The notes beneath the pieces were generated by a model. It worked only from the letters and a program-made list of their open reading frames with translations. It was not told where the DNA came from and did no database searches. A program made the position numbers and the translations under genes. Source: Frankiaceae bacterium (lineage in GTDB: Bacteria; Actinomycetota; Actinomycetes; BP-191). From it: 64,000 nt of DNA. The DNA is taken from positions 62,001 through 126,000 of the forward strand of contig DATMES010000042.1 of NCBI GenBank assembly GCA_035556555.1. The letters are read 5' to 3'. Shown piece after piece: positions 16,803 through 62,324 of this stretch; position 1 is the stretch's first letter; every line of letters begins with the position of its first letter.

Positions 16803-16961
16803 ATGCCCCGCAAGCTCAACCTGAAGCGCGACGTCCTCCAGGAGCTCAGCTCCGACGAGCTCGGCGTCGTCGTCGGCGGTACGCGCGAGACGCTGTACAG
16901 CTGCTACGCGTTCGTCAGCTGCGACATCGTCAACTGCCTGCTGTCGGTCGAGAAGCAGTAG
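16803..16961 (+). CDS. RiPP (lanthipeptide-like) precursor peptide candidate 1
   Basis: A 52-aa peptide with a GAGGAG site upstream. The leader part, MPRKLNLKRDVLQELSSDEL then GVVVGG, fits the K-L-x-L-K-x-x-x-L-x-E-L-S-x-x-E-L-x-x-V-x-G-G pattern of many lanthipeptide-type leaders with a double-glycine cleavage site. The 26-residue tail after GG is rich in Cys, Ser and Thr (three Cys in YSCYAFVSCDIVNC), as a modifiable core would be. A second peptide with a related leader lies at 17838-17999 on the other strand. No dehydratase, cyclase or peptidase-transporter gene is within the window, so any modification is inferred. Confidence 0.65.
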   Translation: MPRKLNLKRDVLQELSSDELGVVVGGTRETLYSCYAFVSCDIVNCLLSVEKQ

Positions 16962-17837: not shown

Positions 17838-17999
17838 TCAGCAGGGGTTGAGCGAGTAGTTGCCGGTGCAGCCGCAGGTCGGCAGCAGCGACTCGAACGT
17901 GTCGCACGGCAGGCCCGACGCGCCGGCGACGGAGACGAGCTCGCCGGTGGTGAGCTCGGTCAGTGCCTCGCCGCGCAGGGTCAGCTTGCGGGACGTCAT
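17838..17999 (-). CDS. RiPP (lanthipeptide-like) precursor peptide candidate 2
   Basis: A 53-aa peptide too short for usual ORF cut-offs. Its start is preceded by GAGGAGA. The leader MTSRKLTLRGEALTELTTGE then LVSVAGA has the same K-L-x-L-x-x-x-x-L-x-E-L-x-x-x-E-L pattern as candidate 1, with the GG replaced by GA. The tail carries Cys32, Cys42, Cys44 and Cys53 with interspersed Thr and Ser (LPTCGCTGNYS). It lies 39 bases upstream of nothing coding on its own strand and about 65 bases downstream of the livF stop, so it may share the ABC operon's transcript. No modification enzyme is seen. Confidence 0.65.
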   Translation of the reverse strand: MTSRKLTLRGEALTELTTGELVSVAGASGLPCDTFESLLPTCGCTGNYSLNPC

Positions 18000-27967: not shown

Positions 27968-28561
27968 CTACTTGCCGACCTTCACGCACGAGGGCCAGGC
28001 GTGGACGTACGAGGACTTGGTCTGCACGTCGTCGACGAGGCCGAGCGTGATGTCCTGGTTGGCGCCCCAGCGCCAGCTCGACGCACGCAGGTTGGTGATC
28101 TTCTCGTTCGCCTTGAGGGGGAACGGCAGCGCCGAGAACGGCACGTGCAGCCGGACCTCCTTCTTGGCGGGGTCGACGATCCCGCTGCCCTTGCCACGGT
28201 TCCACACGTTGCCGACGGGGTTGACGCGGGCGTCGACGGTCACGGTCGTACCGCGCGCGGTGAACGTGAGGTTGAACATGCGCCCTGTCGGAGCGGTGCT
28301 GGGCGTCGCCTCGAGCGCGGCGAGACGGAAGACAGCGGTCAGCATGTTCGCGTTGGTGGCGACGTCGGCGCTGACGATGTCGAGGGTCGGCTCGTTCGGC
28401 GTCGCGAAGATGCCGCTGCCGTTGCCGGTGGCGTCGTCCTTGGCGTCCTTGACGATGTTGCAGACGGGCTTCTTGGGCTTGGGCTTGGCAGCCTCGGCGG
28501 CGCTCACTCCGAGGAGCAGCGACACGGCCGCGGCGGCGGCGAGGGTCTTGGTCAGCGACAT
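27968..28561 (-). CDS. Secreted protein with DPAGD/DAKDDATG-type beta domain
   Basis: A 197-aa exported protein. The ATG at 28561 was chosen over 28570 because AAGGA sits 8 bases upstream of it. The signal peptide is SLTKTLAAAAAVSLLLGVSA. The mature region has VKDAKDDATGNGSG, LDIVSADVATNANMLTAVFR, a central strand-rich segment and a C-terminal VHAWPSCVKVG. The N-terminal D-x-x-x-D-A-x-G / DI-V-x-A-D-V layout is shared loosely with the pair at 41293-42498 (FADPAGDADG, FDVVRVRLAP), suggesting a common extracellular domain. It is coupled to the lipoprotein gene that follows. Confidence 0.75.
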   Translation of the reverse strand: MSLTKTLAAAAAVSLLLGVSAAEAAKPKPKKPVCNIVKDAKDDATGNGSGIFATPNEPTLDIVSADVATNANMLTAVFRLAALEATPSTAPTGRMFNLTFTARGTTVTVDARVNPVGNVWNRGKGSGIVDPAKKEVRLHVPFSALPFPLKANEKITNLRASSWRWGANQDITLGLVDDVQTKSSYVHAWPSCVKVGK

Positions 28562-28586
28562 GGGGCGCATCCTTAGGGCTGGGGTT

Positions 28587-38832: not shown

Positions 38833-39031
38833 AGAAGCAGGTCTGGTCGACGTCGCTGTGGCCCCACCAGTCGAGGTGGACGCCGCTGTTGTTGGCGCTG
38901 AGCGCGTAGTCGCGCGTCGTCACGGTGACGTCGCAGTGGAGGAACGGCACGTGGACGGTCCGCGTGATCGCCTCGGCGGCGGGGGCGGCAAGGGCGGCAA
39001 TCGCGAGGGCGAGGGCGGCGATGCGTCGCAT
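38831..39031 (-). CDS. Small secreted protein (66 aa)
   Basis: The signal peptide MRRIAALALAIAALAAPAAE precedes a ~45-residue mature part (VHVPFLHCDVTVTTRDYALS ... HLDWWGHSDVDQTCF) with two cysteines. The ATG at 39031 has AGAGG upstream. The mature part is polar with Trp-Trp. No known family. It converges with the acetyltransferase gene. Confidence 0.65.
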   Translation of the reverse strand: MRRIAALALAIAALAAPAAEAITRTVHVPFLHCDVTVTTRDYALSANNSGVHLDWWGHSDVDQTCF

Positions 39032-41292: not shown

Positions 41293-41874
41293 ATGCGCCG
41301 CATCCCCGCCCTCGCCGTCTCGCTCGTCCTCGCGACCGCCGCCACAGCCGGCGCCGCGCCCGCGAAGGGCGTGACGTTCGCCGACCCGGCCGGGGACGCC
41401 GACGGCGTGGACGGCCGCGCGGCCGCGGCGTCGCAGCCGGGGTTCGACGTCGTCCGCGTCCGCCTCGCGCCGTTCGAGCGCACCGCGAAGGGCTCCGGGA
41501 TCGCCGTCACCCTGACCCTCGCCGGCGCCCCGTCGACGGCACCCGGGTCGACGTACTACCTCGAGGGCACGCTGGGGCCCTGCGTCTTCACGGCCTGGCG
41601 CACGTTCACGACCGACGGCGTCGGCGACAGCGCGAACGTCGACTGCGGGGCCAGCGGAGGCCTGCAGCACCACGGCACCGGCTCGGGCATCACGCCCGTC
41701 CCCGGCGCGCGGACGCTGACGTTCAAGGTCCCCGCCGCGTGGCTCACGGGCCGCGGCACGACGCTGACCGGCATCGAGGCCGGCACCGCCACCGGCGAGC
41801 CCGCGGTCGGCGTCGCGACCGGCCCGACCGTGGACGTCGCGCGCTACGCGAAGGCGTACCGCATCGGCTCGTAG
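41293..41874 (+). CDS. Secreted protein, tandem paralogue 1
   Basis: A 193-aa exported protein; GAGGAGG precedes the ATG. The signal peptide MRRIPALAVSLVLATAATAG is nearly identical to that of the next gene. The mature chain starts VTFADPAGDADGVDGRAAAA, then FDVVRVRLAPFERTAKGSGI, and ends VDVARYAKAYRIGS. Two cysteines (GPCVFTAW, NVDCGASG) align with those of paralogue 2. It resembles extracellular beta domains such as the one at 27968-28561. Function unknown. Confidence 0.8.
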   Translation: MRRIPALAVSLVLATAATAGAAPAKGVTFADPAGDADGVDGRAAAASQPGFDVVRVRLAPFERTAKGSGIAVTLTLAGAPSTAPGSTYYLEGTLGPCVFTAWRTFTTDGVGDSANVDCGASGGLQHHGTGSGITPVPGARTLTFKVPAAWLTGRGTTLTGIEAGTATGEPAVGVATGPTVDVARYAKAYRIGS

Positions 41875-41913: not shown

Positions 41914-42498
41914 ATGCGCCGCATCCCCGCCCTCGCCGTCTCGCTCGTCCTCGCGACCGCCGCCGCCGCCGGCGCGGCACCCGCGCGCGGCGTGACGTTC
42001 ACCGACCCGGCGGGCGACGCGGATGCCGTGGACGGCCGCGCCGGCGCCACGTCGCAGGCGAGGTTCGACGTGGTGCGGGTACGGCTCGCGCCGCACGCCC
42101 GCACCGCGAAGTCCTCCGGCGTCGCGATCCGCATCGACCTGGCCTCCGCGCCGTCCACGTCGCCGGGGTCGAGCTACTTCTTCACCGCGAAGCAGGGCGC
42201 GTGCGACATCACCGTGTCGCGCACCGCCACCACCGACGGCATCGCCAACAGCACGCTCGTCATGTGCGGCCCGGTCGTCGGCGAGTACCACAGCACCAGC
42301 GTCGCCAAGGGCCTCTCGCCGACCGGCACGTCGATCTCGTTCACGGTGCCTGCCGACGCGCTGCCCAACCCCGCGCTCGGCGCCCAGCTCACCGCCATCG
42401 AGGTCGGCACGTCCGCCGGCGAGCCGGTCTCCGGGTACGCCTCCCCGGCCCGCATCGACCGCGCGGCGTACGCGAAGGCGTACCGCCTCGGCTCCTAG
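41914..42498 (+). CDS. Secreted protein, tandem paralogue 2
   Basis: A 194-aa sibling of the preceding gene, 39 bases after it and with the same GAGGAG site. The first ~17 residues are identical, and TFTDPAGDADAVDGRAGATS, FDVVRVRLAPHARTAKSSGV and RAAYAKAYRLGS match paralogue 1. Middle regions have diverged; Cys lie in GACDITVSR and MCGPVVGEY. This is a recent tandem duplication of a secreted beta-rich protein. Function unknown. Confidence 0.8.
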   Translation: MRRIPALAVSLVLATAAAAGAAPARGVTFTDPAGDADAVDGRAGATSQARFDVVRVRLAPHARTAKSSGVAIRIDLASAPSTSPGSSYFFTAKQGACDITVSRTATTDGIANSTLVMCGPVVGEYHSTSVAKGLSPTGTSISFTVPADALPNPALGAQLTAIEVGTSAGEPVSGYASPARIDRAAYAKAYRLGS

Positions 42499-42890: not shown

Positions 42891-45278
42891 CTAGGGCAGC
42901 GGCACCTCGACGCCGGTCGTCACGTCGGCGGCGTCGGTCTGCGCGGCGTCGATGCCGTCGCCACCGCGCACGGTGTCCGGCGTGAGGTCGCGGGCGTAGA
43001 GCAGGTCGATCCCGGCGCCGCCGTCCAGCAGGTCGGCGCCGGGTCCGCCCGTCAGGCGGTCTGTGCCGGGGCCGCCGAGCAACGCGTTCGGTCCCCAGCT
43101 GCCGGTGATGGTGTCGTTGCCGGCGCCGCCCGTGACGTTCTCGACGTCGAAGCGCACGACGTCGCCCTCCCCCTCCTCGCCGTCGCCGGCCGGGGCATCG
43201 ACCGTCACGGTCACGGCGGCGACGCGCAGCCCGTAGTCGACCGTGTCGAACCCCGCGCCGCCGCTGAGGTCGTCGCCGCCGTTCGCGAGCGCGCCCTCGG
43301 CGAACGTGTCCGACCCGCCCTCCCCGAACGCCCGGTCGGCACCCGTGCCGCCGGTGAGCACGTCGTCGCCGTCGCCGCCGTACAGCCAGTCGTCGCCGTC
43401 CGCGCCGGACAGCGCGTCGGTGCCGCCGTGCCCGAGCAGGTCGTTCGCCGCGCCGTCGCCGGTGAGGACGTCGGCGTACGCCGTCCCCGCCACCGCCTCC
43501 GCGGCGACCCGGTCGCCCTCGCCCGCCTCGCCGTCGTTCGCTGCGCCGTCGAGCGTCACCGCGACGCCCGCCCCGCGGCCGAGGTACGTCACGCGGTCGC
43601 GACCGAAGTCGCCGAGCAGGACGTCGGCACCGTTGCCGGGGTCGCTCTCGTCGAGGACGTCGTTGCCGTCGCCGCCGCGCACGACGTCGTCACCGCCGAG
43701 GCCGCGCAGGGTGTCGTTGCCCGCGCTGCCCGAGAGCCGGTCCGCGCCCGCGGTGCCGAGCACGACGTCGTCGTACGGCGTCCCCGTCACGCCCTCGCAC
43801 GCGTCGAGCGTCACGACGCCGGGACCGCCGGCGAGGTCGATCGTGCCGCCGTGGTACGCCGTCGAGAAGTCGACCGAGTCGTCGCCCGTGCCGCACTCCG
43901 CCGTGTCGTACGACCCGAGCGTGATGGTGTCGTCGCCCCCGCCGGCGACGACCTTCGTGACCCGGTCGCCCGGCATCGTGAACGTGTCGTCGCCCGGCGT
44001 GCCGATCCAGACGTCGAAGTCCTGCACCCGGTCCACCTCGCCGCTGTGGAGGCCGCCCTCGACGGACTGGTCCGAGCCGACCAGCGTCATCCCCGCGCCT
44101 TCGGGGGTGCGCGCCAGGTAGGAGATCGTGTCGACGCCGTCCTGGCCGCTGAGGATGTCCCAGCCGTAGGTCCCTGCGGTGCCGGGCAGAGCCGTGCCCG
44201 CCAGGTGCAGCGACCAGCCGGCGAGCGTTGCCGCCACGCCGTCCGCGGCGGGGTCGGTCACGGACAGCGTCCAGTCGCCGCGCGCGTCCTCGCCGAGCAG
44301 CGCGGCCAGCGTGCCGGCCGCCGGCCGCGCCCTGCCGGGGACCGCGGCGGCCTCGTCGTCGAACAACGTCGCCACCGACCCCGGCGAGCCGAGCACCACC
44401 GACGCCGCGCCGCGCGACAGCGTCAGCGTGAGCGACGACGGGTCGGGGTGGACCACCGTCGCGCGCACCTCCACGTCGAGCGCGCGCTCGCCACTCGTGA
44501 CCGTCACGGTGGACGTCGCGGCGCCCGCGTCGGGTACGGCGGCGCCGCCGCCGGGCACCTGCGCGGTCGCGGTCTCGAGGAGGACGTCGTCGCCCGCCCC
44601 CAGCAGCACGTAGTCGCCGCCGTGGCCGCCGGCGACCCGGTCGGCGCCGTCCCCGCCGAAGACGCCGTCCGAGATCTCGGTGCCCCGGACGAGGTCGTCC
44701 CCCGCGCCCGCGTACACGTCGTAGACCAGCGACGAGGACGGTGCCCCGGCCTGCGGCGACAGGTCGACGACGTCGTCGCCGTCGCCTGCCTCGATCCGCG
44801 CGGAGGCCGAGCCGTCGATCGTCACCGACAGGTCGCTGTCGGCGTCGCCGTTGAGGTGCAGGCCGCCCAGGCTCCGCCGGATGTCGTCGGGCCCCGGCCC
44901 GCCGGCGATCCAGAGGGAGGCGAACCAGCGGACCAGCGTGATCTCGATCTCGGGCAGGCCGTCGGCCTCGGGCGTCGCCCCCGGCGCGAACGGCCTGCTC
45001 ACGTCGACGCGCACCGTCGTGCCGCGGGCACTGCCGGCGACGGAGTCGGTGGTGGTCACCGTCGCGGCGCCGCACGGCACGCCGGCGAGGCGGATCGCTC
45101 CCGCCGGGTCCACGTCGAGCGTGACCGGGGGGTCGTCGTGCCTCCCGGAGACGTCGAACGTCACGACGCCGGCGTCGTACGAGCAGCTCGTCCGGACAGC
45201 GGCGGACGCCGTCCCCGGCAGCAGCGGCACGGCCAGCGCCGCGGGCAGCACGGCAAGGACGGCACGGCGAAGCCTCAT
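42891..45278 (-). CDS. Secreted RTX calcium-binding protein with P-domain-like module
   Basis: A 795-aa exported protein with signal peptide MRLRRAVLAVLPAALAVPLL. Residues ~25-200 are beta-rich. A first RTX-like block (GDGDDVVDLSP, GGDGADRVAGGHGGDY) precedes a segment at about 230-350 that fits a proprotein-convertase P-domain (VTSGERALDVEVRATVVHPD ... DWTLSVTDPAADGVAATLAG, then WSLHLAG). The second half is a long series of GGxGxDxLx-type nonapeptides (YGGDGDDVLTGGTGADRAFG, GGPGTDRLTGGPGADLLDGG) expected to bind Ca2+ as beta-rolls. No protease domain is present. Adhesion or surface structure is possible. Confidence 0.85.
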   Translation of the reverse strand: MRLRRAVLAVLPAALAVPLLPGTASAAVRTSCSYDAGVVTFDVSGRHDDPPVTLDVDPAGAIRLAGVPCGAATVTTTDSVAGSARGTTVRVDVSRPFAPGATPEADGLPEIEITLVRWFASLWIAGGPGPDDIRRSLGGLHLNGDADSDLSVTIDGSASARIEAGDGDDVVDLSPQAGAPSSSLVYDVYAGAGDDLVRGTEISDGVFGGDGADRVAGGHGGDYVLLGAGDDVLLETATAQVPGGGAAVPDAGAATSTVTVTSGERALDVEVRATVVHPDPSSLTLTLSRGAASVVLGSPGSVATLFDDEAAAVPGRARPAAGTLAALLGEDARGDWTLSVTDPAADGVAATLAGWSLHLAGTALPGTAGTYGWDILSGQDGVDTISYLARTPEGAGMTLVGSDQSVEGGLHSGEVDRVQDFDVWIGTPGDDTFTMPGDRVTKVVAGGGDDTITLGSYDTAECGTGDDSVDFSTAYHGGTIDLAGGPGVVTLDACEGVTGTPYDDVVLGTAGADRLSGSAGNDTLRGLGGDDVVRGGDGNDVLDESDPGNGADVLLGDFGRDRVTYLGRGAGVAVTLDGAANDGEAGEGDRVAAEAVAGTAYADVLTGDGAANDLLGHGGTDALSGADGDDWLYGGDGDDVLTGGTGADRAFGEGGSDTFAEGALANGGDDLSGGAGFDTVDYGLRVAAVTVTVDAPAGDGEEGEGDVVRFDVENVTGGAGNDTITGSWGPNALLGGPGTDRLTGGPGADLLDGGAGIDLLYARDLTPDTVRGGDGIDAAQTDAADVTTGVEVPLP

Positions 45279-46511: not shown

Positions 46512-47054
46512 CTACTCGTACGGCGGGCAGTCCCAGACGAACGTGTCCGCGACGTAGAGGTCGCCGCCGAGTACCGGGCAGACCGTGGCGTCGATCCACT
46601 CGTAGGTGAACGGCTCCTCGTACTCCATCGTGTACGGACCGCACGTCGCGTCCGGGTCCGTCGACCACGCCTTGTCCGCGGTGTCGTAGTAGTACGTCCC
46701 CTCGCCGTCGACCTCGACGGCCGTGCAGACGACCCACGGGTCCGACGTGTCGAAGATGACGGACGACGGCGGCAGCGCCGCGACGCCCGGCGTCGTGGCC
46801 GACGTGACGCTGGCGAGGTCGGGGTCGGCGTGGGTGCCGTATCCCTGGACGGAGCAGGTGACCCGCCCGCCGCGCGCGTCCGTGGCCTCCGCGAGGACCA
46901 CCGCACCCTGGAGCGTCCCCTCGACGCGACCCTCGAACGTCGGGCCGGCGAGCAGCGTCGAGTGGTCGCAGAGCGAGGCCAGCACCGGCTCGGCGGCGTG
47001 CGCCGTCGGCGCGAGGCCGGCCCCGGCCAGCGCGAGCACGAGGAGCGCGCGCAT
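46512..47054 (-). CDS. WDCPPY-family secreted protein, array member 8 (last)
   Basis: A 180-aa exported protein (signal peptide MRALLVLALAGAGLAPTAHA). It shows the array pattern: CDHST, GGRVTCSVQGYGTHADPDLA, VTSATTPGVAALP, VVCTAVEVDGEGTYYYD, a fourth Cys in DATCGPY, TVCPVLGG and the terminal GDLYVADTFVWDCPPYE. Six cysteines sit at conserved places. It is the shortest member; the DPVVCPLLAG linker is reduced. Its ATG shares a base with the previous stop (TGATG). It converges directly on the acyl-CoA dehydrogenase gene. Function unknown. Confidence 0.8.
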   Translation of the reverse strand: MRALLVLALAGAGLAPTAHAAEPVLASLCDHSTLLAGPTFEGRVEGTLQGAVVLAEATDARGGRVTCSVQGYGTHADPDLASVTSATTPGVAALPPSSVIFDTSDPWVVCTAVEVDGEGTYYYDTADKAWSTDPDATCGPYTMEYEEPFTYEWIDATVCPVLGGDLYVADTFVWDCPPYE

Positions 47055-47665
47055 CAGCGGCTCCCGTACGGCGGGCAGTCCCAGAACGGCTCGCCGGCGA
47101 CTTCGGCGTCACCGCCGAGCGCGGCGCAGAGCGGCGGGTCGACGTGCTGGACGACGAGGTCGTCCGCCGTGCGGACCGCCTCGTCGACGACGTCGAACAC
47201 CGGGTCGAGGTCGTCGTCCCACATGTCGTAGCAGAGCACGTCCGGGTCGGCCGACCATGTCTCGGCGGCGTCGTCCCAGTAGAACGTCCCCCCGCCCTCG
47301 ACCTCCACCGTCAGGCATACGGTGAGCCAGTCGAGCAGCGGAGGCACCGCGTGCTCGACCAGGGTGTACGGCACCGCCGCGACACCCGGCGTCGTCAGCG
47401 ACGACACGGCGACGAGGGCCGGGTCGGTGTGGTTGTGGCCGTTGCGAGCGGTGCAGGTGACGCGACCGGCGCGCGGGTCCGCGCCGTCGGCGACGGGGAC
47501 CGCCGCGCCGCCGATGTAGGCGATGACGCGGCCGTCCGCGAACGGGCTCGTGGCCCACGAGTACGAGCAGTTCTCGACCGGCCGGCCGGGGCCGGCGGCG
47601 GCGCGGGCCGGCGCGGGCAGCGCCGCCAGCGCGCTGAGCGCGACGGCGAGCAGAGCTCTGGTCAT
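47054..47665 (-). CDS. WDCPPY-family secreted protein, array member 7
   Basis: A 203-aa exported protein starting MTRALLAVALSALAALPAPA. Array motifs are NCSYSWATSPFADGRVIAYI, GADPRAGRVTCTARNGHNHT, VSSLTTPGVAAVP, CLTVEVEGGGTFYWDDAAET, DVLCYDMWDDD, PPLCAALGG and FWDCPPYGSR. It has a longer acidic insert (DDLDPVFDVVDEAVRTADDL) before the fifth cysteine. ATGA overlap joins it to member 6. The mature protein is clearly acidic. Confidence 0.8.
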   Translation of the reverse strand: MTRALLAVALSALAALPAPARAAAGPGRPVENCSYSWATSPFADGRVIAYIGGAAVPVADGADPRAGRVTCTARNGHNHTDPALVAVSSLTTPGVAAVPYTLVEHAVPPLLDWLTVCLTVEVEGGGTFYWDDAAETWSADPDVLCYDMWDDDLDPVFDVVDEAVRTADDLVVQHVDPPLCAALGGDAEVAGEPFWDCPPYGSR

Positions 47666-48231
47666 GGCGTTCCTCCGGAGGGCGGGCAGTCCCAGACGCG
47701 CTCGTCCGCGACATACAGGTCCTCGTCGTGCGGCGCCGCGCAGACCGCGGGGTCGACGACCTCCTCGAGGAGCGCGAGGACGGGGTCGTCGGGATACCAG
47801 TCGACGCAGGTCACCAGGGGGCTCGCGGACCACGACTCCGCGATGCCGTCCCAGTAGAACGTCCCCGCGCCGTCGATCTCCACCGACAGGCACAGCGCGA
47901 ACGGGTCGATCGGGCCGATGGCGTACTCGACGACCCTGCCCGGCGCCACCGCGACGCCCGGGGTCGTCAGCGAGGTCACCGCCGCGAGAAGCGCACCGGT
48001 GTGGTCGTCGCCCCTGCGCAGCGCGCAGGTGACGCGGCCGGTCCGCGGGTCCTGTCCTTCGTCGAACACCACGGCGGCGTCGCCGAGGTACGCCACCTGA
48101 CGGTCGTTCGCGAACGGGTTGGTCACGCTGCCGAAGCTGCAGGTCGTCATCGGCTCCGCGGGGCCCGCCGCGGCGCGCGCCGCGCCAGGCGCGAGCAGCG
48201 GGAGCGCGGCGAGAGCGACGAGCGCGCGCAT
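47662..48231 (-). CDS. WDCPPY-family secreted protein, array member 6
   Basis: A 189-aa exported protein (MRALVALAALPLLAPGAARA). It has TCSFGSVTNPFANDRQVAYL, DPRTGRVTCALRRGDDHTGA, VTSLTTPGVAVAP, CLSVEIDGAGTFYWDGIAES, VTCVDWYPDD, PAVCAAPHDEDLYVADERVW and then DCPPSGGTP, where Tyr of WDCPPY is replaced by Ser. Its ATG overlaps the stop of member 5 (TGATG). Confidence 0.8.
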   Translation of the reverse strand: MRALVALAALPLLAPGAARAAAGPAEPMTTCSFGSVTNPFANDRQVAYLGDAAVVFDEGQDPRTGRVTCALRRGDDHTGALLAAVTSLTTPGVAVAPGRVVEYAIGPIDPFALCLSVEIDGAGTFYWDGIAESWSASPLVTCVDWYPDDPVLALLEEVVDPAVCAAPHDEDLYVADERVWDCPPSGGTP

Positions 48232-49118
48232 CAGCGGCTCGCGTCGTACGGCGGGCAGTCCCACACGAACGTGTCCGCCGCGTAGACGTCGCCCTCGGGC
48301 TCGACGACCACCGGCCCCGCACCGGGCGCCAGGCCCGCGAGCAGCGGGCAGACGACCGGATCGACCTCCTCCTCGATGAATGCGTTCAGGTCGGAGAAGA
48401 CCGGATCCACCTCCTCGTCGACGAACTCGTTCACGTCGTCGGTGACCCGGTCGAGATCCAGATCCGTCAAGTAGGCGTCGTCGTACGGCGGGCAGTCCCA
48501 CACGTCCCACGTCGACACCGACAAGTCCCCGTCGGGCTCGACGGCCACCGGCCCCGCGCCGGGCGCCTGGCCGGCGAGCAGCGGGCAGACGACCGGGTCC
48601 ACCTCGTCCTCGACGACGTAGTACACGCCGTACGACTCGATGACGTCGAACGGCCAGTTGTCGCCGTAGCCGAGAAACCTGCAGGACGCGAGCGGGCTGG
48701 TGGTCCAGCGGCGGGTCTCGGCGTCGAGGTAGAACGTCCCCGCGCCGTCGATCTCCACAGCGGTGCAGACCCTGGGGAGGTACCCGAAGTCGTCGTCGTG
48801 CACGTACTCGAAAGGCATCGCGGGCATCGTGACGACGCCCGCCGTCGTGGCCGAGGTGTGCGACACCAGGTCCGGGTCGGCGTGCCGGAGGCCCCACTGC
48901 ACCGAGCAGACGAGCCGGCCCGTCCGCGGGTCCGCGCCGTCGGCGATGACGACGGCCGCTCCGCCGAGGTAGCCGACCTGGCGCTCGGTGTCGAACTGGT
49001 TGGTGACGCTGGTGTAGTCGCACGGCACCGCGCGTCCCGGCCCGGCGGCCGCGTGCGCGGCGTTGCCCGGCAAGGCGAGGGAGAGGGCAGTAGCGACGAG
49101 AGCGACGAGCGCGCGCAT
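48231..49118 (-). CDS. WDCPPY-family secreted protein, array member 5, with duplicated C-terminal module
   Basis: A 295-aa exported protein, the longest of the array. After the standard six-cysteine unit ending VSTWDVWDCPPYDD, a hinge (DRVTDDVNEFVDEEVDPVFS) leads into a second copy of the C-terminal module: EEEVDPVVCPLLAGLAPGAG then GPVVVEPEGD and TFVWDCPPYD. This gives eight cysteines. The signal peptide is MRALVALVATALSLALPGNA. The duplicated module is nearly identical to the end of member 4, suggesting recent unequal exchange between neighbours. Its ATG overlaps the previous stop (TGATG). Confidence 0.82.
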   Translation of the reverse strand: MRALVALVATALSLALPGNAAHAAAGPGRAVPCDYTSVTNQFDTERQVGYLGGAAVVIADGADPRTGRLVCSVQWGLRHADPDLVSHTSATTAGVVTMPAMPFEYVHDDDFGYLPRVCTAVEIDGAGTFYLDAETRRWTTSPLASCRFLGYGDNWPFDVIESYGVYYVVEDEVDPVVCPLLAGQAPGAGPVAVEPDGDLSVSTWDVWDCPPYDDAYLTDLDLDRVTDDVNEFVDEEVDPVFSDLNAFIEEEVDPVVCPLLAGLAPGAGPVVVEPEGDVYAADTFVWDCPPYDASR

Positions 49119-49771
49119 CAGCGGCTCCCGTCGTACGGCGGGCAGTCCCACACCTGCCAGGTCGGTACCGACAGGTCACCCTCGGGCTCGACGACCACAG
49201 GTCCGGCTCCGGGTGCCAGGCCCGCGAGCAGCGGGCAGACGACCGGGTCGACCTCCTCCTCGATGTACTCGTTCACGTCGTCGTACGTCTCGAGGATCGT
49301 CGTGACCGGCTCGCCGTCGTCGCCGAAGCTCTGGATGTCGCAGTAGGCGAGCGCGCTGGTGGACCACTCCTCCGCCAGGTCGTCCCAGTAGAACGTCCCG
49401 GCGCCGTCGACCTCGACGGACGCGCACGTGTTCGGCAGCCGGTAGTCGGAGGCGTACTCGAACGGCGTCGCCGGCAGCGTGACGACGCCGGGCGTGGTGA
49501 CCGACGTGGCCGACACGAGGTCGGGGTCACCGTGCCGGGCGCCCCACTGCAGGGAGCAGGACATCCGGCCGGTACGGAGGTCGGTGCCGTCGGCGATGAC
49601 GTAGGGCCCGCCGTCGAGGTATCCGAGCGTGCGGCCGTCGGCGACCGGGTTGTCCATGGTGGCCCAGCTGCACAGGAACCCCGTGAGCGGCGGCGGGCCC
49701 GCCGCGCCGGCGGGCTGCGGCGACACCAGTGCCAGCGCGGTCGTCGCGCCGGCGAGCACGATGCGGATCAC
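49118..49771 (-). CDS. WDCPPY-family secreted protein, array member 4
   Basis: A 217-aa exported protein; the GTG start overlaps the stop of member 3 (GTGA). The signal peptide is IRIVLAGATTALALVSPQPA. Array motifs are FLCSWATMDNPVADGRTLGY, DLRTGRMSCSLQWGARHGDP, ATSVTTPGVVTLP, CASVEVDGAGTFYWDDLAEE, LAYCDIQSFGDD, DPVVCPLLAGLAPGAGPVVV and VWDCPPYDGSR. The N-terminal half is closest to member 5 (shared QWG and TPFEY/MPFEY segments). Confidence 0.8.
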   Translation of the reverse strand: MIRIVLAGATTALALVSPQPAGAAGPPPLTGFLCSWATMDNPVADGRTLGYLDGGPYVIADGTDLRTGRMSCSLQWGARHGDPDLVSATSVTTPGVVTLPATPFEYASDYRLPNTCASVEVDGAGTFYWDDLAEEWSTSALAYCDIQSFGDDGEPVTTILETYDDVNEYIEEEVDPVVCPLLAGLAPGAGPVVVEPEGDLSVPTWQVWDCPPYDGSR

Positions 49772-50385
49772 GACGTTGCCCACTCGTAGGGCGGGCAGTC
49801 CCAGACGAAGGTGTCCGCGACGTAGAGGTCGCCGTCCTCCTCGATCCGCACCGGTCCCGCGCTCGGCGTACCCGCGAGCACCGCGCAGACCACCGGGTCG
49901 ACGTGCTCCTCGATCACGTCGAGCTCGTCGTCGTCCGGGGTCCAGTCGTAGCAGGTCACCAGCGGGCTGGCCGACCACGCCTCCTCGATGTCGTCCCAGT
50001 AGAACGTCCCCGCGCCGTCGACCTCGACCGAGAGGCAGACGGTGAACCACTCGTCGGGCTCGAGGACGAACTCGACGACGGTGGCCGGCACCGCCACGAC
50101 GCCGGGGGTCGTCAGGGAGGTCACCGACGCGAGGACGGGGCCGTCGTGGGTGAATCCCTGCCGCAGCGTGCAGGTGACGCGGCCCGTGCGCGGGTCGGCC
50201 CCGTCGTTGATCGCGACGACCGCGTCGCCGAGGTAGCCCATCTGGCGTTCGTCGGTGAACGGGTGGGTGATGGTGCTGAAGCCGCAGTTGTTCACCGGGT
50301 CGGCGGGGCCGGCGGCGGCGTGCGCGGCACCCGGAGAGAGCAGGGCGAGCGCGGTCATCGCGGTGGCGAGCAGGGCGCGGGTCAC
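49768..50385 (-). CDS. WDCPPY-family secreted protein, array member 3
   Basis: A 205-aa exported protein (GTG start; TRALLATAMTALALLSPGAA). It has NCGFSTITHPFTDERQMGYL, ADPRTGRVTCTLRQGFTHDG, VTSLTTPGVVAVP, CLSVEVDGAGTFYWDDIEEA, LVTCYDWTPDDD, VDPVVCAVLAGTPSAGPV and DTFVWDCPPYEWATS. Closest to members 6 and 7 in signal peptide and central segment. GTGA overlaps on both sides. Confidence 0.8.
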   Translation of the reverse strand: MTRALLATAMTALALLSPGAAHAAAGPADPVNNCGFSTITHPFTDERQMGYLGDAVVAINDGADPRTGRVTCTLRQGFTHDGPVLASVTSLTTPGVVAVPATVVEFVLEPDEWFTVCLSVEVDGAGTFYWDDIEEAWSASPLVTCYDWTPDDDELDVIEEHVDPVVCAVLAGTPSAGPVRIEEDGDLYVADTFVWDCPPYEWATS

Positions 50386-50981
50386 GGCGTTCCTTCCTTG
50401 TACGGCGGGCAGTCCCAGACGAACGTGTCGGCGACGTACACGTCGCCCTGCGGTGGCGCCACCGCGGCGAGCAGCGGGCAGGCGAGCGGGTCGACGTGCT
50501 CGAGAACGAACGGGTCGACGACCTCGAACAGGTCGCCGACGGGGTCCCACACCTCGGGATCCGAGATCCACGGCCCGCAGTACGTCGCCGGGTCGAGTGA
50601 CCAGCCGCCGCCCTCGTTCCGCCAGTAGTACGTGCCCTCGCCGTCGGTCTCGACGGACGTGCAGACCGCGACGTCGGTGTCCGGAGGGGCGTCGGTGACG
50701 GTGGCCGTCGCGACGAGCGCGACGGCTCCCGCGGTCGTCGGCGAGGTGGCCGACGCGAGGTCGGGGTCGGAGTGCGGACCCCACGGCTGCAGCGAGCAGG
50801 TGAGGCGCCCCGTCCGCGGACCGATCGAGATGGGCCCGCCGGCGAACACGCCCGTCCGCTCACCGGAGCCGGGCGTGGCGGCACGGCACGAGCCGTCGGT
50901 GGCCGGGCCCGGCTCGGCGTGCGCGCCGGGGGCAGGCAGCGCGACGAGGAGAGCGGCCAGGACCGCGAGGCGGCGCGTCAC
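50382..50981 (-). CDS. WDCPPY-family secreted protein, array member 2
   Basis: A 199-aa exported protein. The GTG at 50981 was chosen over 50987 because it overlaps the preceding TGA, like its neighbours; the signal peptide is TRRLAVLAALLVALPAPGAH. Motifs are GSCRAATPG, GPRTGRLTCSLQPWGPHSDP, TSPTTAGAVAL, VCTSVETDGEGTYYWRNEGG, ATYCGPW, DPLACPLLAAVAPPQGDVYV and TFVWDCPPYKEGTP. It is the most divergent member in the first cysteine region. Confidence 0.78.
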   Translation of the reverse strand: MTRRLAVLAALLVALPAPGAHAEPGPATDGSCRAATPGSGERTGVFAGGPISIGPRTGRLTCSLQPWGPHSDPDLASATSPTTAGAVALVATATVTDAPPDTDVAVCTSVETDGEGTYYWRNEGGGWSLDPATYCGPWISDPEVWDPVGDLFEVVDPFVLEHVDPLACPLLAAVAPPQGDVYVADTFVWDCPPYKEGTP

Positions 50982-51607
50982 GACCACTCGTACGGCGGGC
51001 AGTCCCAGACCGTGCTGCCCGCGACGGAGACGTCACCCTCGGGCGCTACGGCCACCGGACCGATGCCCGGCGACGCCGCCGCGAGCAGCGGGCAGAGCAG
51101 CGGGTCGACGACCCGCTCCCATAGCACCCTGTCGATCGGGTCGTCTACCGGGGCCTGCAGCGCGCCGTCGCACTCGGCGTAGGGGCTCGTGGACCACTCG
51201 TCCACGTCGTCGTCCCAGTAGAACGTGCCCGCGCCCTCGATCTCGACCTGCGCGCAGAGGTAGACCGTGTCGTCCACCGCCGCGTCGTACTCGATCGTCG
51301 TCGGCGGCAGCACGGCGACCCCCGGCGTCGTGACCGACGCGACGGACACCAGGTCCGCGTCCGCGTGTCGGTTCCCGTTGAGCTGGAGCGTGCAGCGGAT
51401 GCGCCCCGCGCGGGGGTCGGCGCCGTCCGCGACGACGACCGGGCCTCCGTCGAGCGTCCCGCTGTGCCGGCCGTCGCCGAACGGGGCGGTCAACGTCGTG
51501 AACCCGCACCGCAGACCCTCCGCGGGACCGGCCGCCGCGTGCGCAGTGCCGGGGCCGAGCGCGGCGAGGGCGAGCAGCGCGACCGCCGCCGGAACGGTGC
51601 GTCGCAC
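50978..51607 (-). CDS. WDCPPY-family secreted protein, array member 1 (first)
   Basis: A 209-aa exported protein. Its GTG has AGGAGG about 6 bases upstream, the best ribosome site in the array, consistent with being first in the operon. The signal peptide is RRTVPAAVALLALAALGPGT. Motifs are RCGFTTLTAPFGDGRHSGTL, DPRAGRIRCTLQLNGNRHAD, VASVTTPGVAVLP, LCAQVEIEGAGTFYWDDDVD, YAECDGAL, DPLLCPLLAAASPGIGPVAV and STVWDCPPYEWS. All eight cistrons run from here without a gap. Confidence 0.82.
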   Translation of the reverse strand: MRRTVPAAVALLALAALGPGTAHAAAGPAEGLRCGFTTLTAPFGDGRHSGTLDGGPVVVADGADPRAGRIRCTLQLNGNRHADADLVSVASVTTPGVAVLPPTTIEYDAAVDDTVYLCAQVEIEGAGTFYWDDDVDEWSTSPYAECDGALQAPVDDPIDRVLWERVVDPLLCPLLAAASPGIGPVAVAPEGDVSVAGSTVWDCPPYEWS

Positions 51608-51726
51608 GGGAACCTCCTGGGACTGGGTGCGCGGATCGTCCGGGTTCGTCCGGATGCGCGTCAACGGAGGTGGGTGGCGGACTCCGGTCCCTGACGGAAG
51701 GCGCTCGGCGTGGCAGGCTGCGGCGG

Positions 51727-55034: not shown

Positions 55035-55469
55035 GTGACCACGACGGACGCCGCTCCCGTGAAGGCTCCGGGGCGCTGGCCGTACGTCGTCACCTTCCTG
55101 CTCATGGCGGACGTCGGCGCGGCGCTGGCGTGGATGCGGTTCAGGAAGTCCGACGCGCTCGGCTCGACGGAGGCGTGGGCCGGTGCCGTGGCCGCCGTCG
55201 CCGGGCTCGCGGCCGGATGGCTGCTCGGGCGCGCGCTCTGGCGCCGGGTCCTGGAGGAGGCGCGGGCGCGCGCCGCCGACCCGAACGCGTTCGCGAAGGA
55301 GCCGACGTTCCGGCAGGCGGCGCGGATGTTCGGGACGTACTTCGCCGTCCACGTGTCGCTCACCCTCGCGAGCAACGGTCCGGACGTGCTTGCCGCCGCG
55401 GTGATGATCGGGCTCTGCGCCGGCTGCCTCGGCGTGGCTTTCAGCGTGCTGGTCTACCGCCCGTCGTAG
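55035..55469 (+). CDS. Small membrane protein (144 aa)
   Basis: It has a GTG start. There are about four hydrophobic helices: WPYVVTFLLMADVGAALAWM, TEAWAGAVAAVAGLAAGWLL, then TYFAVHVSLTLAS and VLAAAVMIGLCAGCLGVAFS. A cytosolic charged segment (RVLEEARARAADPNAFAKEP) lies between the second and third. I do not recognise the family. The end overlaps the opposing BNR-repeat gene by 16 bases. Confidence 0.7.
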   Translation: MTTTDAAPVKAPGRWPYVVTFLLMADVGAALAWMRFRKSDALGSTEAWAGAVAAVAGLAAGWLLGRALWRRVLEEARARAADPNAFAKEPTFRQAARMFGTYFAVHVSLTLASNGPDVLAAAVMIGLCAGCLGVAFSVLVYRPS

Positions 55470-56770
55470 CGCCGTAGCAGCCCGCGGCCCGACTCCTGCC
55501 GCGCGATCGTCGCCTTCGCCAGCCGCGTCGCCCGGGTGCAGACCGCGCCCGGGCACCCGTCGGCGAACGCCGCCAGCACCCGTCCGCGCCCGTCGATCAC
55601 CAGGTCGTTGAAGTCGAGGAGGTTGCGGTCGGCGCCGCACAGCGCGCCCGACGTGCAGATCGTGCCGGCCTGCACCGGCGGCGTCGCCTCCACCGTCGTC
55701 CAGTGCCTGCCGCGGTCGTAGGTGAACGACACGTACTGCCGCCACGTCCCCATGAACGCCGCGTCGGAGCCGTCGCCCCCGGTCTTCGAGCCGAGGTACG
55801 CCACCGCCGCCCGGTCGCCGTCGCCCGCGACGGTCGTCACGAAGCGCGTGTTGACGATGCCGTGCTCCGCGCCGAGGCGGACGGGCTTGGTCCACGTGCC
55901 CGCGCGGTCGCGCGAGACGGACGCGTACGGCGGCCCGCCGGCCTGCCCGGGCAGCCGCCCGCCCCACGCGAAGTAGACGGTGCCGTCCGACCCGACGCCG
56001 ACGGAAGGGTGCATCGCGTCGCCGACGGTCGAGCCGGGCACCGTACGCACCTGCCAGGACTTGCCGTTGTCGGTCGTCCGCGCGAGGCCCGCGCGATCCC
56101 CGCAGGCCCACGAGGGGAGGTACGTCGTGCCGTCCGGACCGGACTTGAGGTGCCCGTGCGACGTCGTGCAGTCGTTGATCGAGAACGCCGGCACCGCGGG
56201 ACCGAACGTGTCCCCGCCGTCGGTGCTCACGCCGCACATCGCCGTGACGCCGGTCTGCGCGCAGTAGTAGACGGCGTTCGGGTACGCGTCGGGGTCGCCG
56301 CCGATCAGCTTGCCCACGCCGACGCTCTGGTGGTCGAACGTCGCGCCCGGCGAGCAGCCGAGCGGCACCTGCGTCCAGTTCCTGCCGGCGTCGTCGGTGT
56401 ACGCCATCCGGGAGCAGTAGAGGTCGAGCTGCGACGTGAACGTCCGCCCGGTCCCGACGTCGGTCTCGAGGATCGGGTCGAACGTGTAGAGGCCGGGGAG
56501 CAGCGGCGTCACGTCGGTCCACGTCGCGCCGCCGCGGCCGTCGAAGCCGGTGACGCGCAGGACGTTCTGCGCCGACTGGAACAGCACCGCGCCGGTCTTC
56601 GGGTGCACCCCGAGCGTCGGCTCGCCCGCGTCGTCTCCCATGCCGGGCGGGGCGGCGTACGACGCGAACGTGGTCCTGGCGGGGCGCGGCGCCGCACCGG
56701 CCCCCGAGACGGCTCCGGCGACGGCGGCGACGGCGACGCAGGCGGACAGCAGGACGGTGGCGCGGCGCAT
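55454..56770 (-). CDS. Secreted sialidase/BNR-repeat-like beta-propeller protein
   Basis: A 438-aa exported protein ([20 protein letters not shown]). Repeated Asp-box-like motifs are visible: [48 protein letters not shown] and [12 protein letters not shown], i.e. S/T-x-D-x-G-x-x-W blades of a sialidase-type propeller. Multiple cysteines ([40 protein letters not shown]) suggest disulfides. The catalytic Arg triad and Tyr/Glu of true sialidases could not be assigned, so it may be a binding propeller. Divergent from kgd. Confidence 0.8.
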
Positions 56771-60797: not shown

Positions 60798-61343
60798 ATG
60801 AGGAAGTTCTCGTTCAAGCCCGCGCTGGTCGTGAAGGGTCGCAAGTTCAAGGGCCTGCGCGGCTACGCCGGCAAGCCGTTCCACCCGCCGCTCACCGACA
60901 TCCCCGTGGCGGCGTACGTCTTCGCTGCGGCGTTCGACGTGCTGTCGGCGCTGCAGGACTCGGCATCGCTGCGCGAGGCGGGGACGTACGTCCTCGTCGG
61001 CGGCGCCGTCGTCAGCGTGCTGGCGATGCTCACCGGCTGGGCCGACTGGCACCGTTCGAGCCAGGTCGGCACCCAGGCGCGGCGGACCATCAACGCGCAC
61101 GCGGTCCTCATGATCGGCGCGGCGGTCTTCGTGCTGGTGGACATCGCGGTGCGGCTGGGCGCGGACGGCGCCGCCACCGGAGCGATGGTGCTGCTCTCGG
61201 TGGCGGCGGCGTCGCTCACGTCCGTCGGGGCGACGTACGGCGGCTCCCTGGTCTTCGACTACGGCTTCAACGTCGAGACCTCAGGCGACCACCCGGTCTG
61301 GCACGAGTCCGAGACCGACGTGTTCCCCGGCGACCCGCACTAG
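60798..61343 (+). CDS. DUF2231-like membrane protein
   Basis: A 181-aa integral membrane protein. It begins MRKFSFKPALVVKGRKFKGL, then GKPFHPPLTDIPVAAYVFAA, the HPPLTD/IP motif of DUF2231, and has four TM helices with GWADWHR after TM2 and RRTINAHAVLMIGAAVFVLV entering TM3. The histidines are spaced like cytochrome-type or metal-binding sites. AGGGAGG precedes the ATG. Function of the family is not firmly known. It may be co-transcribed with DUF6104. Confidence 0.85.
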   Translation: MRKFSFKPALVVKGRKFKGLRGYAGKPFHPPLTDIPVAAYVFAAAFDVLSALQDSASLREAGTYVLVGGAVVSVLAMLTGWADWHRSSQVGTQARRTINAHAVLMIGAAVFVLVDIAVRLGADGAATGAMVLLSVAAASLTSVGATYGGSLVFDYGFNVETSGDHPVWHESETDVFPGDPH

Positions 61344-61534
61344 ATGCTGAACTCGACCTGGCAGCCGCGGACGCTGACGACGCAGAACCGGATCGTGCAC
61401 ACGTCGGGGTAGCACGGGTTCTCCGACTCGCACGCGACGTCGACCGTGTAGTCGCACTCGCCGAACGGCTCCGCGACGGCCGGCGTCGCGAACGCCGCCG
61501 CCGCCAGCGCCGCGGCTGCGATCAGGCGCGTCAT
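61340..61534 (-). CDS. Secreted cysteine-rich peptide, array member 5 (last)
   Basis: 64 aa. The signal peptide is MTRLIAAAALAAAAFATPAV; the ~42-residue mature peptide, ECDYTVDVACESENPCYPDV then CTIRFCVVSVRGC, has six cysteines beginning with the family's C-x7-C. A 4-base ATGA overlap joins it to the previous gene, and its stop overlaps the DUF2231 stop on the other strand. Unknown function. Confidence 0.75.
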   Translation of the reverse strand: MTRLIAAAALAAAAFATPAVAEPFGECDYTVDVACESENPCYPDVCTIRFCVVSVRGCQVEFSI

Positions 61535-61719
61535 ACGACGCACTTCCCGACCCAGACGAGGCAGATGTTGATGGTGCACGGGTAGTCGGGCTGACAGGGG
61601 GTCTCGTTGCAGGCGACGTCGACCTTGCCGTCACAGCCGCCGCCGATCGCGGCGGAAGCGGGGGTCGTGACACCGAGAGCGGCCGCACCGAGGACGGCGG
61701 CCAGGAGCAGGCGCTTCAT
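61531..61719 (-). CDS. Secreted cysteine-rich peptide, array member 4
   Basis: 62 aa; signal peptide MKRLLLAAVLGAAALGVTTP. The mature peptide GGCDGKVDVACNETPCQPDY then PCTINICLVWVGKCVV carries six cysteines (C-x7-C-x4-C-x5-C-x4-C-x6-C). It is separated by 22 bases from the previous gene and has GAAAGG-type sequence upstream of the ATG, so it has its own ribosome site. Closest to member 3 by the PDYPC segment. Confidence 0.75.
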   Translation of the reverse strand: MKRLLLAAVLGAAALGVTTPASAAIGGGCDGKVDVACNETPCQPDYPCTINICLVWVGKCVV

Positions 61720-61741
61720 GAGGGGATCACCTTTCGAGGGG

Positions 61742-61930
61742 TTAGAGGCAGTCGGGCTTGACGTAGATCACGCAGAGCTGGAGCCCGCACGGGTAGTCGG
61801 GCACGCACTCCCCCTTGACGCATAGGACGTCGACGGTGCCCGAGCAGTCGCCGACCGGGCCGGCCTGGGCCGGAGCCGGGACGCCGAACGACGCCGCGAC
61901 CAGCAGGCCGGAGATCAGGAGGCGCCTCAC
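61742..61930 (-). CDS. Secreted cysteine-rich peptide, array member 3
   Basis: 62 aa. The GTG start overlaps the stop of member 2 (GTGA). The signal peptide is RRLLISGLLVAASFGVPAPA. The mature part GDCSGTVDVLCVKGECVPDY then PCGLQLCVIYVKPDCL has the same six-cysteine layout as member 4, with a leading C-x7-C and shared PDYPC. Confidence 0.75.
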   Translation of the reverse strand: MRRLLISGLLVAASFGVPAPAQAGPVGDCSGTVDVLCVKGECVPDYPCGLQLCVIYVKPDCL

Positions 61931-62148
61931 AGCACGCACCCCGAGGTCCAGACCCAGAGCAGGCAGGGCGGGATCATGCCGCAGTCGAGGTCGTCGGGAC
62001 CGCAGACGAAGTCGCGGCACAGCGTGTCGACGACGCCGTCGCACTGGCCGCCGGGGAGCCCGGGCTTGGGCAGGTCCGGTGCGGCGGAGGCCACGGGAGC
62101 GAGGGCGGCGACGGCGAGAGCCGCGGCCGCGAGCACGCGGCGGGTCAC
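61927..62148 (-). CDS. Secreted cysteine-rich peptide, array member 2
   Basis: 73 aa, GTG start in a GTGA overlap. The signal peptide is TRRVLAAAALAVAALAPVAS; a short Pro/Gly-rich extension (PDLPKPGLPGG) precedes the cysteine core QCDGVVDTLCRDFVCGPDDL then DCGMIPPCLLWVWTSGCVL. Six cysteines match the family. Family unknown. Confidence 0.75.
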   Translation of the reverse strand: MTRRVLAAAALAVAALAPVASAAPDLPKPGLPGGQCDGVVDTLCRDFVCGPDDLDCGMIPPCLLWVWTSGCVL

Positions 62149-62324
62149 GGCGCGGGCCAGGTCGGCGTGCAGTAGTTGATGCGCTCGCCGGTGAGCGGGT
62201 GGTAGAGGCCGGTCCAGGTCTCGACCCACGGGTGCCGGCACTCGACGCTGTCGGCAGAGGCGGCGGGGGCGAGGGTGACGCCGAGGGCGGCGGTCGCGGC
62301 GGCGACCAGGGCAAGACGGATCAT
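62145..62324 (-). CDS. Small secreted peptide, first gene of the five-peptide array
   Basis: 59 aa; too short for standard cut-offs. GGGAGAT precedes the ATG. The signal peptide MIRLALVAAATAALGVTLAP leads to a ~35-residue mature part SVECRHPWVETWTGLYHPLT then GERINYCTPTWPAP with only two cysteines and several Trp and His. It does not share the six-cysteine core of the four genes that follow, but its stop overlaps the next GTG (GTGA), so it is part of the same unit. Confidence 0.7.
   Translation of the reverse strand: MIRLALVAAATAALGVTLAPAASADSVECRHPWVETWTGLYHPLTGERINYCTPTWPAP

Follow-up and report, generated by a model that had tools for sequence, protein, structure and literature searches.

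The window analysed here is a 64,000-nucleotide stretch of contig DATMES010000042.1 from a Frankiaceae bacterium. Its minus strand carries eight consecutive genes at positions 46512-51607 (coordinates of the array genes include stop codons), each encoding a protein with a hydrophobic signal peptide that ends in an AxA-type site (8/8), and the other members are 44-51% identical to gene 1. The reading frames and these identities bear out an earlier note on this DNA, which had described the genes as one family with signal peptides. Gene 1 (50978-51607, 209 aa), gene 2 (50382-50981, 199 aa), gene 3 (49768-50385, 205 aa) and gene 4 (49118-49771, 217 aa) start with GTG, and gene 5 (48231-49118, 295 aa), gene 6 (47662-48231, 189 aa), gene 7 (47054-47665, 203 aa) and gene 8 (46512-47054, 180 aa, with a TAG stop) start with ATG. 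Gene 1 displays the full plan of signal peptide, a core with Cys1-Cys4 and a tail with Cys5-Cys6; gene 2 lacks the ADGADP loop that precedes RTGR, the tail is shortened in gene 6, and gene 8 has the shortest tail of the array. The GC content at the three codon positions (∼0.7/0.5/0.95) identifies the frames as ordinary coding genes of a GC-rich genome.

From gene 1 to gene 8 the genes overlap by 4, 4, 4, 1, 1, 4 and 1 bases, in agreement with the 1- or 4-base overlaps previously noted at all seven junctions. An alternative start of gene 2 lies at 50987, while the GTG at 50981 yields the 4-base coupling. Since such overlaps are also frequent at other operon junctions in the window, those of the array show an operon, nothing unusual, and say nothing on stoichiometry; the proposal that the proteins are made as a set is therefore not supported beyond the operon structure itself. 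Three of the junctions are near-identical in DNA (GGGAGCCGCTG-ATG-CGCGCGCTC, or one base off), which fits head-to-tail duplication of a unit. The operon promoter is probably located in the short gap 5' of gene 1 (51608-51669), a putative position in which no sigma-70-like site was found. Across this gap lies a methyltransferase gene on the plus strand (start 51670 or 51772, end 52563), and the other neighbours of the array encode an acyl-CoA dehydrogenase and a secreted 786-aa protein with RTX calcium-binding repeats and a P-domain of the proprotein convertase type (42894-45251, minus strand).

Several further features of the window are recorded here in their own right. Two adjoining, very similar genes for secreted proteins of ∼194 aa with a PAGDADGVDGRA motif (41293-41871 and 41914-42495, plus strand) represent another recent tandem duplication near the array. 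A second overlapping secreted array (61343-62324, minus strand) consists of five tandem tiny cysteine-rich genes of 59-73 aa (e.g. ...GGCDGKVDVACNETPCQPDYPCTINICLVWVGKCVV) with three 4-base junctions, and a similar trio is present at L071 11810-12554 in the related genome BP_191. Positions 16803-16958 (plus strand) and 17841-17999 (minus strand) encode short peptides that combine a RiPP-like leader (M-x-RKLxLxxExLxELTxxELxxVVGG) with a cysteine-bearing tail. Such leader peptides are scattered over the genus (L061 12799-13183, L080 2721-3362, L073 7294-7455 and L132 689-868), and no modifying enzyme was found beside them among the genes inspected.

The family, termed C6 here, is built from two modules, a four-cysteine core of ∼130 residues and a two-cysteine tail ending in WDCPPY. 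All eight array proteins contain the six invariant cysteines that had been described for them, and gene 5 contains eight, because its tail is present twice. The duplicated unit comprises ∼80 residues including a spacer, is matched separately in profile searches, extends approximately over 48231-48470 (minus strand; spacer plus EEEVDPVVCPLLAG...VWDCPPYDASR), and is accompanied by direct repeats (D3/D5; 48242-48394, 48479-48631 and 49129-49281). The motifs proposed earlier hold as a consensus but were idealised: DPRTGR is in fact RxGRxxC, TTPGV reduces to a TTxG core, and VVCPLLAG is found in some members only. Likewise, the terminal VWDCPPY is present in six genes, while gene 7 ends in FWDCPPYGSR and gene 6 in VWDCPPSGGTP. 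Strong variation of the loops is weakly supported: variability is highest in a few loops (mature residues 53-56, 85-89 and 109-112) and in the acidic linker before Cys5, but in the predicted strands it is not significantly below that of other positions (p = 0.16).

In a survey of 80 C6 sequences from six genomes, Cys1, Cys2 and Cys3 are present in every member aligned over the region, and Cys4 is near-invariant in the genus of the window and slightly displaced in a second genus. Cys5 and Cys6 are lost jointly in tail-less members (13 of type CCCC--) and are both retained in tail-only proteins (L061, L067 and L068). The simplest reading of this joint loss, and of the existence of tail-only proteins, is a four-cysteine core combined with an independent Cys5-Cys6 tail, in which Cys5 would pair with Cys6 and the core cysteines Cys1-Cys4 would pair among themselves. 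The core is also joined to other secreted regions in some relatives (L064, L128 and L133). A second cysteine-containing secreted domain (GTYVAGGTAVGR...LCLPFGGGDAV...CVDNNGDG), fused to or near a C6 core, was observed at L133 6575-9072, L064 5446-7029 and L065 1481-2101, and the copies of L133 and L064 have no Pfam match.

None of the eight window proteins matches Pfam-A, NCBIfam, PHROGs or PADLOC above the curated cut-offs, and alignments of 33 and 19 C6 members likewise give no match above cut-off in Pfam-A and NCBIfam. Matches to PraB, XylB and protease inhibitors fall far below cut-off and were disregarded. Profile searches of all PDB sequences returned nothing meaningful (one match with E = 0.07 covers ∼45 residues of a scaffold construct), and the literature yielded nothing on 'WDCPPY' or on BP_191. 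These searches support the earlier statement that no named family carries this signature, and the strong match to a characterised family that was to count against it did not appear in Pfam-A, NCBIfam, PHROGs, PADLOC or the PDB. As judged from sequence, C6 is a new family with a signal peptide, a Cys1-Cys4 core and usually a Cys5-Cys6 WDCPPY tail, a definition that fits 80 sequences from six genomes.

AlphaFold predictions, built on alignments of 15-16 sequences, were obtained for the mature part of gene 1 (pLDDT 84.5, pTM 0.65) and for a member from another species (pLDDT 78.4, pTM 0.67). Both models contain eight to nine strands, a helix bearing Cys5, a short hairpin and the WDCPPY end. Foldseek comparison with solved and viral structures gave no match with E at or below 1e-3; the best matches (E = 1.6e-3 with a TM-score of 0.34 for the gene 1 model, and 3.3e-2 for the second model; TM-scores < 0.5) are generic beta-sandwiches, including GH2 sandwich domains, C2, CBM21 and Ig domains. 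The core is likely to be an Ig-like or similar beta-sandwich, a model-based assignment of fold class only and not of exact topology. C6 proteins resemble the Big, MPT63-like and neocarzinostatin-like sandwiches in being secreted and, as predicted, all-beta, with core cysteines located in strands (Cys2 and Cys3 in the gene 1 model), but differ from them in the lack of a profile match, in Foldseek E-values above 1e-3 with TM-scores below 0.5, and in the two-cysteine WDCPPY tail, which is unique to C6.

Actinomycetes use small acidic disulfide-bonded beta-sandwich proteins as inhibitors and carriers, and this precedent suggests that C6 proteins could be protease inhibitors or carriers of the neocarzinostatin type, in which a stable sandwich binds one enzyme or compound each. 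An M36 metallopeptidase gene in one C6 locus (L071) is consistent with such a role. However, the known inhibitor and carrier families are unmatched in Pfam and NCBIfam (the neocarzinostatin-type Pfam model is matched by no C6 member), no protease gene or biosynthetic cluster is consistently linked to C6 genes, and the tail module is left unexplained, so that we consider this role improbable. The C6 proteins showed no recognisable ligand site, enzyme motif or anchor.

A C6 profile search gives 38 matches on 16 contigs in the genome of the window and 14 and 13 matches in two congeners, one of them the metagenome-assembled genome 'Frankiaceae bacterium BP_191'; these three represent the single genus of their order. 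In a second genus, belonging to another order of the same class, three genomes have 7, 7 and 20 matches. These counts are of profile matches rather than genes, since certain genes give two partial matches and others are truncated at the end of a contig. A joint profile found no C6 match in 384 other genomes of the class, and a phylum-wide genome sample had none either; both searches capped the candidates scored in each genome and leave room for single distant members elsewhere. In an exact-pattern scan of ∼85,000 species genomes BP_191 is the sole match, and the eight window proteins as queries gave no match in a genome collection. C6 relatives are also absent from viral, phage and plasmid collections, and nothing accordingly points to a mobile or viral origin. 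A 66-aa frame in the window (38834-39031) was rejected as a member, its match (E = 8e-4) covering the signal peptide and first strand only.

The eight window genes group as a single clade (support 0.978) in a tree of 71 cores, and the remaining clades are mostly restricted to a single species or genus. The window array represents a single tandem expansion that is specific to its lineage. Further arrays of the family comprise 5 genes (contig C50), 6 (BP_191) and 7 (second genus, L116), and the last two answer the earlier suggestion to look in related genomes. Short contigs (C48, C65 and C66; loci L059, L058 and L057) end in near-identical C6 sequences, where recent copies evidently broke or collapsed the assembly, and the copy number found in the genome of the window is therefore probably a minimum. 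Tandem arrays, species-specific clades and fast protein change are likewise typical of lineage-specific tandem secreted or surface families of bacteria, from which C6 differs in having had no name or model in the searched libraries and in being found in two genera only.

Close C6 pairs have dN/dS of 0.5-0.9, high yet below 1. Between window genes the synonymous differences are saturated (pS 0.33-0.48, equal to those between unrelated clades), and since the GC3 bias (GC3 ∼0.95) saturates these sites, dN/dS of the window genes is unusable and positive selection is not demonstrated. Of the diversifying pattern recognised earlier, tandem expansion and rapid amino-acid change are thus upheld, while selection for change is not. 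The raised ratios could also reflect relaxed, largely non-functional amplification, in which copies multiply and decay, and truncated members, partial tails and a frameshifted BP_191 member are in line with this. The latter, at L110 5639-6330, is a C6 gene across two frames and may be a pseudogene or an assembly error. Decay is nevertheless very improbable, as none of the eight window frames is interrupted, their signal peptides are intact, their cysteines invariant and their GC3 of the coding type, and the cysteine pattern is maintained in two orders.

All-against-all comparison of the genes around 41 C6 loci identified four recurring secreted families: a VWA protein, P415 (∼415 residues, with Ig-like repeats), P200 (∼200 residues) and BNR-only proteins. 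In the VWA protein (∼900 residues) the N-terminal part is BNR-like, the VWA domain carries a DTTxSM motif and has an Integrin_beta/VWA Pfam match, and there is a proline-rich stretch as well as a C-terminal membrane helix with RRR after it. A four-gene VWA-P415-P200-C6 module is present at seven loci and in both orders. Of the 35 VWA genes in the six genomes, 11 have a C6 gene within 3.5 kb (∼1 expected, P ∼1e-8), as found with a VWA profile (A5) that was derived from C6-linked VWA genes and favours their close homologues. A suggestion that nearly all VWA genes adjoin C6 genes was wrong, having arisen from scoring two candidates per genome; the ratio given here covers all candidates. None of the four partner families is nearby at 24 of the 41 loci.

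The VWA protein also occurs without C6 in related genera, and C6 therefore seems to have been added to a surface system that is older; a search beside the VWA genes of further genera in the second order found no C6 relatives. The window array is not beside a VWA gene, its nearest associated gene being of the BNR type (55457-56770, minus strand) at a distance of 3.85 kb, and is an offshoot expansion. A P200-family member is also present in the window (27971-28570, minus strand). The VWA protein, carrying DTTxSM, resembles VWA surface adhesins with a C-terminal membrane anchor, and C6 genes are its conserved neighbours in two orders. C6 proteins are neither VWA proteins nor equipped with a membrane anchor, and their proposed partnership with the VWA protein is read from gene neighbourhood.

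The mature window proteins are strongly acidic (pI ∼4, charge -18 to -39) with hardly any lysine, and this composition bears on two other possible roles. Secreted, acidic, lysine-poor and present in many copies, the C6 proteins might be structural or matrix proteins of an envelope, sheath or extracellular matrix, for which copy number and acidity outweigh specific binding. Coupled translation of eight similar proteins would yield a bulk product, and the RTX-repeat protein is encoded close by. This role is rather unlikely, given that most C6 members lack internal repeats or an anchor, that strong divergence among copies is unexpected for a bulk structural protein, and that family-profile searches found no S-layer or cell-wall-binding domain in them.

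Tandem, fast-changing, cysteine-rich secreted proteins also look like an antimicrobial or toxin array, with one diffusible effector per gene directed against competitors and variation that tracks targets, an option raised in the earlier note and to which the dN/dS of close pairs would conform. No immunity gene lies between or beside the members, all eight genes being of one family, and no effector domain and no toxin, phage or defence match was detected. The C6 proteins are moreover large and very acidic, unlike most cationic antimicrobials, and their synteny with surface proteins is conserved. A toxin role is accordingly of low probability.

The alternative of surface ligands, also offered by the earlier note, is favoured by two features unseen at that time, the dispersal of C6 genes over the genome and their link to a VWA/beta-propeller surface protein. 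We suggest, with a probability of roughly 0.4, that C6 proteins serve outside the cell as diversified subunits, binding or accessory, of a system for cell-surface adhesion or recognition. The genes, the export signals as predicted from sequence, the family, its modularity, spread and expansions and the gene-neighbour link are computed results, whereas extracellular location, disulfide pairing, physical association with the VWA protein and a binding function are inferences. The array would then be an operon-sized tandem expansion of taxonomically restricted, exported, probably disulfide-linked and strongly acidic proteins that act outside the cell. Their partner, older and still conserved, would be the VWA protein, which combines a BNR-type beta-propeller with an integrin-beta-like VWA domain and a proline-rich stalk and is anchored in the membrane by its C-terminal helix. 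New C6 copies may arise by tandem duplication and then scatter, with core and tail varying as units, so that a species would carry a repertoire of surface-binding variants. A more specific version, in which C6 proteins are dedicated exchangeable binding subunits of the anchored VWA/beta-propeller receptor and generate surface-recognition diversity in this uncultured order through tandem duplication and core/tail swapping, is speculative and unlikely as it stands.

Lineage-expanded secreted proteins are a recognisable kind, and C6 is an undescribed family among them whose two-module anatomy is unusual. Without a previous name or profile, it accounts for nearly 1% of the genes in an uncultured lineage of order rank, with an independent expansion in each species. 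The C6 alignment can serve as the seed of a new family model, and the link to the VWA protein, conserved in two orders, provides a testable guess at function. If this link holds, C6 would represent a bacterial case in which a diversified set of ligands is tied to a single class of surface receptor.
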